Assembly: GCF_001424485.1 (NCBI RefSeq)
Contig: NZ_LMQC01000003.1
Span: forward strand, 1-64,000
Reading direction: 5' to 3'
Length of the DNA: 64,000 nt
Source: Modestobacter sp. Leaf380
GTDB taxonomy: Bacteria > Actinomycetota > Actinomycetes > Mycobacteriales > Geodermatophilaceae
Shown here: positions 7,208-29,166 of the stretch, one piece after another
Position numbering within the stretch: the stretch's first letter is position 1
How the letters are laid out: every line of letters starts with the position of its first letter
Made by a program: the position numbers and the translations under genes
The notes under the pieces: model-generated
The model's database searches: none
What the model saw: the letters and a program-made list of their open reading frames with translations, nothing else
Told to the model about the DNA's origin: nothing

Positions 7208-7263
7208 CGGGACAGTCTCCCCCGGCTGGACCGCGGGGAGTGCAGCCGCCAGGCTCTCTCCCC

Positions 7264-8496
7264 ATGAGCGCACCCCTCCCCCAGGTCACCAGCGAGGTGG
7301 GCCGGCTGCGCACCGTCGTGCTGCACCGCCCGGGCGCCGAGCTGCGCCGGCTCACCCCGCGCAACAACGACCAGCTGCTCTTCGACGGCGTGCCCTGGGT
7401 GGCCCGCGCTCAGGAGGAGCACGACGCGTTCGCCGAGGCCCTGCGCACCCGCGACGTCGAGGTGCTGCACCTGGACCGGCTGCTGGCCGACGTCATGGCC
7501 GTGCCGACGGCCCGCGAGGAGCTCATCGCCTCCGCCGTCGACGACCCCCGGCTGGGCGCCACCCTGCGGCACGTCACCGCCGACCACCTCGCGGGCCTGG
7601 CCCCCGACGACCTGGCCGCCGTCCTCATCGCGGGCCTGGCCCACGACGAGCTGCCCGGTGGCCGCGGGCTGGCCTTCGAGCTGATGACCCGCGGGGACTT
7701 CGTCGTCCCACCGCTGCCCAACCTGCTCTTCACCCGGGACTCTTCGGTGTGGGTCGGCGGTCAGGTCGCCGTCACCTCGCTGGCCATGCCGGCCCGGCAC
7801 CGGGAGTCCACGATCACCCGGGCCGTCTACAGCCACCACCCGCGCTTCGCCGGCGCCGAGCAGCTCTACGACTCCTCGCTCGAGCACCTCGAGGGCGGTG
7901 ACGTCCTCGCGCTGGCCCCGGGCGTGCTGGCCGTGGGCGTCGGTGAGCGGACCACCGCCGGCGGTGCCGAGCGGCTGGCCCGGCGCGCGTTCGCCCGCGG
8001 CCTGGCGCACACCGTGCTGGTCGTCCCGGTGCCGCAGGAGCGGGCCACCATGCACCTGGACACGATCTGCACGATGGTCGACGTCGACGCGGTGGTCATG
8101 TACCCCGCCCTCGCCGACCACCTGGTCGCCTGGACCGTCACCGCCGGCGAGCAGCTCCCCGACGACGCCGACAGCACCGAGCTGCGGGTCACCGGGCCCG
8201 AGCCGCTGCTGACCGCCGCGGCGACCGCGATGGGGATCGAGCGACTGCGGGTGATCGACACCGGCCTGGACCCGGTGACCGCCGAACGGGAGCAGTGGGA
8301 CGACGGCAACAACACCCTGGCCCTGGCACCGCGCCTGGCGGTGGCCTACGAGCGGAACACCGTCACCAACGCGGCCCTGGAGGCTGCCGGCATCGAGGTC
8401 GTCCGGATCGCCGGGTCCGAGCTGGGCAGCGGCCGTGGCGGTCCGCGCTGCATGAGCTGCCCGGTCGTCCGGGACCCGCTGCCGGCGGCCCCCTGA
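7264..8496 (+). CDS. arcA: Arginine deiminase
   Basis: A 410-residue enzyme converting L-arginine to L-citrulline and ammonia in the cytoplasm. Diagnostic features are [10 protein letters not shown] at the N-terminus, the substrate-binding [15 protein letters not shown], the catalytic His region [15 protein letters not shown], and the nucleophilic cysteine C396 in [15 protein letters not shown] at the C-terminus. Length matches bacterial ArcA. The usual partners of the energy-yielding pathway (arcB ornithine carbamoyltransferase, arcC carbamate kinase, arcD antiporter) are not beside it, so it may serve acid or nitrogen metabolism or rely on unlinked genes. The start is the ATG giving [17 protein letters not shown] long hairpin follows the gene and may end its transcript. 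Confidence 0.95.
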
Positions 8497-8545
8497 CCCC
8501 GCACCCGCCGCCCGCTGGCCCCCGCCCGCCACCGCCGGTCGGCGT

Positions 8546-8602
8546 CGAGTGACACGTGAGCGTGGACGTGACGAGCCGACGTCCACGCTGACGTGTCACT
8601 CG
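8546..8602. repeat. 57-bp near-perfect inverted repeat
   Basis: Two 24-base arms (left arm starts CGAGTGACACGT, right arm ends ACGTGTCACTCG) match at 23 of 24 positions around a 9-base loop. It lies after arcA and before the SMR operator. It could be a strong terminator for arcA, but the arms are much longer than other terminators in the window and there is no T-tract, so a palindromic repeat-element (REP-like) origin is also possible. Confidence 0.75.
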
Positions 8603-8610
8603 CGTCGGAC

Positions 8611-8650
8611 GACGCGGCGACGCGACGACGCGGCGACGCGGCGACGCGGC
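8611..8650 (+). repeat. Five tandem 8-bp units (GACGCGGC)
   Basis: Consecutive octamers GACGCGGC, GACGCGAC, GACGCGGC, GACGCGGC, GACGCGGC fill the space between the 57-bp inverted repeat and the SMR operator, meeting the operator at one base. Such short tandem units can vary in copy number by slippage. The effect on the SMR promoter is unknown. Confidence 0.7.
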
Positions 8651-8692
8651 GAGTGGTACGGCTGTACCGGTTTGGTACGGTCGTACCACTCG
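8650..8692. promoter_or_regulatory. Nested palindromic operator of the SMR-TetR operon
   Basis: The outer arms are CGAGTGGTACG and CGTACCACTCG. Each half also contains its own dyad (GGTACGGCTGTACC and GGTACGGTCGTACC), so four GGTAC/GTACC half-sites sit in 43 bases. This is the typical pattern for a TetR-family repressor binding as a pair of dimers (as in QacR). The TetR gene is the second gene of the operon, implying autoregulation. Binding is inferred. Confidence 0.75.
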
Positions 8693-8755
8693 GGTGGCCG
8701 AGCGTCGGGGCACCCGACCGGCCGCCGACCGAGCACGACCCCCTGGAGGAACCCC

Positions 8756-9082
8756 GTGGCCTGGGCACTCGTCATCGTCGCCGGCGCGTTCGAGACGGCG
8801 TTCGCCGTCTCGCTGAAGAACTCCGAGGGGTTCAGCCGGCTCTGGTGGACCGTCTCCTTCGTCGTCTGCGCCGGGATCAGCTTCACGCTGCTGACCATCG
8901 CGCTGCGCACGCTCCCGGTCGGGAGCGCCTACGCGGTGTGGACCGGCATCGGTGCCGCCGGCACCGCGGTCGTCGGGATGGCCGTGCTCGGCGACCCGGT
9001 GGGCACGGTGCGGATCCTGTCCATCCTGCTGATCATCGCCGGCGTCGTCGGACTGAACCTGGCGCCCTCCGCGGCGCACTGA
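8756..9082 (+). CDS. SMR-family efflux transporter (SugE/Gdx-like)
   Basis: A 108-residue, four-helix small multidrug resistance protein. SMR proteins work as antiparallel dimers that exchange protons for cationic substrates. The essential membrane glutamate is present in helix 1 (IVAGAFETAFAVSLKNSEGF, E13). The block YAVWTGIGAAGTAVVGMAVLGDP is of the SugE/Gdx (guanidinium or quaternary-ammonium exporter) type. The GTG start has CTGGAGGA just upstream. It is followed three bases later by a TetR gene and preceded by a nested operator, so it is probably induced by a ligand of that TetR protein. No guanidine riboswitch was recognised upstream, so guanidinium as substrate is uncertain. Confidence 0.88.
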   Translation: MAWALVIVAGAFETAFAVSLKNSEGFSRLWWTVSFVVCAGISFTLLTIALRTLPVGSAYAVWTGIGAAGTAVVGMAVLGDPVGTVRILSILLIIAGVVGLNLAPSAAH

Positions 9083-29123: not shown

Positions 29124-29125
29124 GT

Positions 29126-29164
29126 GGAGGGCGGGGGCGCAGGAGACCTGCGCCCCCGCCCTCC
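29126..29164. terminator. Strong bidirectional terminator hairpin
   Basis: A perfect 18-bp stem (GGAGGGCGGGGGCGCAGG and complement) with a three-base loop between the convergent DUF1059 and rhodanese genes. Confidence 0.88.
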
Positions 29165-29166
29165 GC

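Follow-up and report, generated by a model that had tools for sequence, protein, structure and literature searches.

In Mycobacterium tuberculosis, mmr (Rv3065) and Rv3066 place an SMR gene and a TetR repressor in one operon, the arrangement also found here, and according to an excerpt of one report four rv3066 mutants show a more than 100-fold higher expression of mmr, comparable to that of rv3066 deletion strains (PMC11537118). Mmr-like pairs of genomes related to ours (five loci, L235–L239) carry two dyads, as this locus does, in nearly abutting four-half-site operators of the TGTAC-N4-GT(A/C)CA type; they differ in their Qac/EmrE-like pumps, mostly TGTAC half-sites, dyad starts 14 bp apart and recognition helix PVGSTTYYF. 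The nearest solved relative of the present TetR by single-sequence search is EbrR (3hta-3htj), by its PDB name the EbrA repressor and presumably from Streptomyces, which was solved with proflavin and ethidium, whereas guanidinium is the candidate ligand here. The guanidine-III riboswitch (RF01763) of Gdx/SugE genes, an RNA sensor, stands before exporters of this kind in the same bacterial families, whereas the present operon has no Rfam riboswitch match. Within the TetR family, the QacR operator of Staphylococcus aureus consists of several half-sites, and TetR/tetO has a sequence and geometry that differ from the operator described below. As an excerpt of one paper gives it, tetO, a palindrome of about 15 bp and a dimer-size site as here, is bound by a TetR dimer, while QacR binds a 28 bp palindrome as a tetramer (PMC4482099). 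Unlike the QacR operator, the sites described here are separate and complete 16-bp dyads, two at this locus, with variable spacing in relatives and often present as one dyad only.

The locus lies within the window, the whole 64,000-nucleotide stretch of Modestobacter sp. Leaf380 DNA that was analysed (Table 1). It comprises an SMR gene followed by a TetR gene, and the sequence-only reading was correct in describing an operon with TetR as its second gene and, in front of it, a 43-base palindrome with a dyad of its own in each half. The inverted-repeat arms are present, and GGTAC-N4-GTACC is complete in both halves with dyad starts 19 bp apart. The regulator scores 52.4 bits with PF17940 TetR_C_31 (cut-off 27.4) and 20.1 bits, below the cut-off of 24, with PF00440. 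Its model is all-helical with a mean pLDDT of 93.7 (TetR fold) and all 50 matches listed in a structural search with this model are TetR-type regulators, one within a fusion biosensor; the protein belongs to the TetR family. Our proposal is that the palindrome is a duplicated operator of this TetR. A dimer on the downstream dyad would cover the -10 box and a second dimer site the region upstream of it, repressing both a Gdx-type pump and the repressor itself until a small cation releases TetR. Taken as a whole, we regard this account as likely.

Table 1. Features of the SMR-TetR locus, with positions in the window
Feature	Position	Strand	Remarks
Arginine deiminase arcA	7240-8496	+	upstream neighbour
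Strong hairpin	8546-8602		between arcA and operator, outside the operator; 24-nt arms, z -7.2
43-base imperfect palindrome	8650-8692		CGAGTGGTACGGCTGTACCGGTTTGGTACGGTCGTACCACTCG; 17/21 positions pairing; arms 8650-8668 and 8674-8692, 19 nt each, 89% complementary, 5 nt between
Upstream operator dyad	8654-8669		TGGTACGGCTGTACCG; 11/12 consensus letters
Downstream operator dyad	8673-8688		TGGTACGGTCGTACCA; 12/12 consensus letters
Predicted extended -10, TGG-TACGGT	8673-8681	+	inside downstream dyad; -10 hexamer 8676-8681
GGAGG ribosome-binding site of SMR gene	8745-8749	+	from sequence
SMR exporter, 108 aa	8756-9082	+	GTG start; Gdx/SugE-like
TetR-family repressor, 207 aa	9086-9709	+	GTG start; TetR_C_31; 3 nt after SMR gene

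The bare 43-base palindrome is in itself unremarkable. When the window was copied 60 times with a first-order Markov model, 9 copies held at least one equally good palindrome, and the window itself holds two. A better one, with 19 of 21 pairs, lies between genes at 29124-29166 and is probably a terminator hairpin. Likewise, the confinement of GGTACNNNNGTACC to two sites of the 4.76-Mb genome, both within 8650-8692, proves little alone because a reversed control pattern is matched equally often. Against chance, it is the tandem pattern GTACNNNNGTACN{5,14}GTACNNNNGTAC that is exceptional, matching once each in 13 of 60 related genomes as compared with 0 of 60 for the reversed control. Seven of the 13 matches stand before an SMR-TetR pair and four beside another TetR and a gene for a putative maa-like acetyltransferase; of the remaining two, L036 lacks neighbours of this sort and L045 has a TetR-like frame of a different type. 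In L033, L042, L043 and L044, another TetR subgroup, a double GTAC-N4-GTAC operator touches the maa-like start codon.

Given that a bare palindrome is not rare, it is conservation that decides. SMR-TetR pairs were collected by protein similarity only, the operator never serving for selection, through an alignment-based scan; a scan of genome contigs with a single protein had found no relative. Loci in which no SMR passed the matching threshold, including 35 of the 80 TetR relatives retrieved, and duplicates by SMR sequence were left out, which gave 49 non-redundant pairs from Klenkia, Geodermatophilus, Blastococcus, Modestobacter, Cellulosimicrobium, Oerskovia, Luteimicrobium, Actinopolyspora, Arthrobacter and other genera. 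All 49 carry the consensus TGGTACNNNNGTACCA (TGGTAC-N4-GTACCA) with at least 9 of 12 letters no more than 130 bp upstream of the SMR gene, and in 200 rounds of dinucleotide shuffling only 0–8 of 49 did so. The dyads are thereby found conserved in orthologous loci, the check that the sequence-only reading had set for itself. A spacer of 4 is found at all 49 loci while other spacers from 0 to 10 give 0–22, with 0 and 1 for the neighbouring spacers 3 and 5; the 21, 14 and 22 loci obtained with spacers 1, 9 and 10 are taken as overlapping or neighbouring half-sites. The outer arms CGAGTG/CACTCG, two extended half-sites (AGTGGTAC) included, are not conserved in related pairs.

Within Geodermatophilaceae the operator is present with the regulator and absent without it. 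The 19 SMR loci followed by TetR score 9–12, the 46 loci (50 SMR genes) without a TetR match 6–9, and two SMR loci with a distant TetR 8 and 10. At L169 (genome G086) the pump is of the TetR-linked type, and both TetR, within the 3-kb locus, and the operator (score 7) are missing. This comparison supports the proposed operator in front of a guanidinium-type exporter, read by a co-transcribed TetR, and the TetR repressor encoded by the adjoining gene very probably binds at 8650-8692. Three of the 35 loci left out for want of an SMR match (L079, L111 and L117) nonetheless have a perfect TGGTAC-N4-GTACCA. The window's own genome also encodes a second operon, SMR-SMR-TetR (L177, contig C12), near the start of which a TGGGAC-N4-GTCCCA dyad has the same spacing and a different core.

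Neither the -10 element discussed here nor the guanidine-III riboswitch link described below formed part of the sequence-only reading. The third spacer base is T in 37 of 49 downstream dyads, compared with 5 of 20 upstream dyads and with 2 of 49 when the other strand is read, and it is T in 24 of 26 dyads of a second family whose species overlap with the first set. This T makes TACNNT and, when the half-site's TGG is counted in, an extended -10 element, TGGTACNNT. On statistical grounds the downstream dyad thus appears to carry a directional -10 hexamer, and transcription would start near 8688. Because the -10 box lies inside the downstream dyad, a bound dimer would cover it. TTGACG or TTGACC is found 16 bp upstream of the -10 element at five loci of one genus (L063, L073, L076, L077, L104); the window has no convincing canonical -35 box, and a simple sigma-70 scan of 8400-8800 gave no hexamer pair. 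Downstream of the predicted start, the folding of the leader is no better than that of shuffled sequences (z -0.69). Rfam gave no riboswitch match at 8400-8800, the sole hits up to E 1 being two microRNA matches below threshold, and RF01763 has no match in the genome of the window; the operon thus has no guanidine aptamer in its leader, class III having been searched genome-wide.

Operator and recognition helix vary together among the paired TetRs examined, a relation that is correlative only. PLAATTYY(F/S/Y) goes with GGTAC half-sites; the window TetR has PLAATTYYS, the last residue being F in most relatives. In maa-linked TetRs the helix PLGS(L/V)TYHF goes with TGTAC or CGTAC half-sites. PLAATTYYF was rejected as a sufficient predictor of the operator: nearly all of the 35 SMR-less TetR relatives have the same helix and most lack the dyad, so the helix alone fails to predict it. 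Its invariance in L046–L125 is also partly selected, since [VL]PLAATTYY was one of two peptide patterns used in the scan that gave these loci.

The pump scores 90.5 bits with PF00893 Multi_Drug_Res (cut-off 23.7) and is a member of the SMR family. Its similarity to Gdx exceeds that to Qac proteins: the nearest solved relative is Gdx-Clo (E 1e-22, against 2e-13 for EmrE), the SMR tree puts the pump on the Gdx-like side, and the best model for it is NCBIfam SugE, albeit at 99.1 bits below the cut-off of 126. The pump keeps E13, S42, Y59 and W62 and has F at position 16, a position occupied by W in Gdx proteins and by G or A in Qac proteins according to an excerpt of one study (PMC7695847). Judged by these similarities, the pump would be a guanidinium exporter of the Gdx type, to which it is nearest, although it lacks the characteristic W16. 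Among paired pumps of the second family W16 is present in 25 of 26, and four pairs (L105, L113, L115, L121) place Qac-like pumps under the same operator.

The distribution of guanidine-III riboswitches provides a link between this operon and guanidine. In Geodermatophilaceae the riboswitch was found at 18 of 20 TetR-less SMR loci scanned (of 32 fetched) and at none of 20 other SMR loci, 19 of them TetR-linked. RF01763 exceeds its cut-off in 75 of 108 genomes, 4 of 20 with an SMR-TetR pair and 71 of 88 without (Fisher 5e-7), a difference also seen excluding Klenkia (4 of 11 versus 71 of 88; 0.004) and within genus g4 (1 of 6 versus 18 of 18; 1e-4), although these P values are too small and overstate the certainty because the genomes are related. 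TetR-linked and riboswitch-linked pumps form separate clades, so the displacement brought in another pump along with another regulator. The two systems coexist in four Geodermatophilaceae genomes, and in these the operator is found at none of the four riboswitches. Outside the family, RF01763 exceeds its cut-off in 2 of 29 pair genomes, both with a Qac-like paired pump.

A second family of 121 genomes around Cellulomonas sp. RIT-PI-Y, which includes Cellulosimicrobium, Oerskovia, Luteimicrobium and Paraoerskovia, shows both exclusion and superposition. RF01763 exceeds its cut-off in 67 of the 121 and TetR orthologues (E below 1e-43) are present in 43. The intact operator-pump-TetR unit is found in 26 genomes, and RF01763 in none of these 26 versus 67 of the 95 others. 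The other 17 TetR genomes have no intact pump beside the regulator and 15 of them have the riboswitch. Five of the 17 retain a partial, diverged SMR match beside TetR; the two examined (L252, L268) look like degraded SMR remnants and have no operator. Labelling the TetR tree by intact (26) or not (17) requires at least three well-supported changes, and the best tree has six. An operator of 10–12 letters lies no more than 150 bp ahead of the riboswitch in 11 of the 15 genomes with TetR and riboswitch but no intact pump. Its start is 12–15 nt before the aptamer match in nine, all nine with TACNNT in the -10 place, and at -70/-76 in two. The other four comprise one degraded copy (8/12) and three without any, and at L308, one of these three, no SMR gene was found after the riboswitch. 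In genomes without TetR the operator is found at 1 of 39 riboswitches, with a score of 10 and the GTAC core missing. At the two stacked loci examined (L298, L303), operator and riboswitch are followed by a tandem of two SMR genes with W16; SMR genes after riboswitches were identified with a partly hand-written query. Nine of the eleven stacked aptamers score 36–41 bits against a cut-off of 36, and are therefore weak family members.

The operator thus accompanies the regulator's own pump in genomes that lack the riboswitch and otherwise stands before the riboswitch, which suggests that the regulator follows guanidinium export and would make guanidinium the most likely inducer. The operon replaces the guanidine-III-controlled Gdx genes, or its regulator stacks on them, and for this reason we give guanidinium or a simple guanidine about even odds as the releasing cation. 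The wider proposal, that TetR is a guanidinium-responsive transcription factor, the protein equivalent of a guanidine riboswitch, that together with its pump has replaced the riboswitch in Klenkia and many Cellulomonas relatives and works in trans elsewhere, is advanced tentatively and is somewhat more doubtful. In those other relatives TetR would act on the promoters of riboswitch-controlled pumps, placing a double lock on the same export genes, of transcription by the repressor and of the leader RNA by the riboswitch. An excerpt of a 2025 review states that no guanidine-sensing transcription factor is known (PMC12186494). A search of open-licence literature found no description of a protein sensor of guanidine, an absence that weighs little, nor any match to the operator motif in several spellings. 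The locus offers a candidate protein whose operator is defined, natural replacements in each of two families and riboswitch promoters stacked with a repressor site, such that a single protein and a handful of DNA fragments would now suffice to test the question of a guanidine sensor. Targets of the regulator can also be sought in other genomes by means of the operator consensus.

Several observations count against the account as a whole, among them the 35 of 80 TetR relatives that are SMR-less, the co-occurrence of both systems in four Geodermatophilaceae genomes, the 4 of 15 riboswitch genomes without a clear operator and a 5'-UTR hairpin, described below, in 17 of 26 second-family pairs. Others point towards a multidrug sensor that uses the same operator and, in the manner of EbrR, leaves it in the presence of dyes or quaternary ammonium compounds, with a pump that may handle both kinds of substrate. 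EbrR, at 31% identity by structural alignment, was crystallised with proflavin and ethidium, Rv3066 is a further sequence relative of the TetR, four pairs have Qac-like pumps and the window pump has F16 in place of W16. We nevertheless consider a multidrug sensor unlikely, given that guanidine-III riboswitches in two families are either excluded by the operon or preceded by its operator, that W16 is nearly constant in paired pumps of the second family, and that the only pair genomes outside Geodermatophilaceae with the riboswitch are two whose pump is Qac-like. Pump exclusion alone cannot prove what TetR binds, and as it informs on the pump more than on the sensor it would also fit a TetR responsive to some other cation, for example a polyamine, agmatine, a biguanide or a product of arginine, exclusion then arising because one Gdx per genome suffices. 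The arginine deiminase gene upstream, also nearby in several relatives, and the structures of other TetR proteins of the same fold with spermidine and choline are in keeping with such a sensor. Its probability is nonetheless low, and slightly lower than that of a multidrug sensor, because an operator before riboswitch-controlled pumps in 11 of 15 TetR genomes without an intact pump ties the regulator, and not the pump alone, to guanidinium export.

The arrangement of the dyads bears on how a guanidinium-responsive or other TetR would occupy the palindrome. At the 9/12 threshold 30 of the 49 pairs have one dyad only. Two or more are found in 17 of 20 Geodermatophilaceae rows, counting L049, whose second match is a chance one 38 bp away, and in 2 of 29 rows from elsewhere; in the later, second-family set 3 of 26 have more than one. 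Among the 20 spacings measured are 22 bp in eleven cases, 21 in three, 23 in two, and also 27 and 29, the 19 bp of the window being the only 19. The unit, as judged from these comparisons, is one 16-bp dimer site, duplicated in Geodermatophilaceae about two helical turns apart, since the spacing varies and most pairs hold one dyad; the arrangement seems closer to tandem TetR-type operators than to QacR. The four half-sites and overall dyad of the window, and the double dyads spaced 14 bp apart of the Mmr-like pairs, would suit two dimers on overlapping half-sites in a QacR-like nested operator with strict spacing, as the sequence-only reading had it. That claim does not survive the predominance of single dyads, each a complete 16-bp palindrome, or the range of 19–29 bp, and a nested operator with fixed half-site geometry, which we rejected, is now improbable. 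The strong hairpin just upstream and the equally good chance palindromes might suggest an RNA hairpin, terminator or repeat with no connection to TetR, but this is barely credible given dyads that are kept with TetR and missing at TetR-less SMR loci, a simple scan of 8400-8800 that found no terminator-like site, and the unexceptional folding of the leader.

Further features accompany the operator in individual loci. In Arthrobacter sp. Br18 (L103:1384-1431) it forms the centre of a perfect 48-base palindrome with arms of 24. The hairpin of the second family, GACGGCGG...CACCCGG, is conserved in 17 of 26 intact pairs (for example L063:1411-1460 and L101:1410-1458), where it separates the operator from the Gdx start, and is missing from the window leader. 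An alignment of 18 sequences has compensatory changes at 5 of 9 predicted pairs, and 15 loci scanned against Rfam up to E 1 gave no match. It may be the actinobacterial sugE motif GGAM-2, reported in an excerpt of one paper as not binding guanidine in first tests (PMC7736828), and could itself be the sensor in the second family. Arginine deiminase lies beside or within about 1.5 kb of a Gdx-TetR pair in the window and in L046, L048, L050, L053, L055, L056, L058, L059 and L060, a proximity that possibly reflects a link to guanidino metabolism. Near-copies of an arm of the hairpin at 8546-8602 are found elsewhere in the genome, at two spots on one contig and one on another, and this hairpin is perhaps a member of a small dispersed palindrome family.
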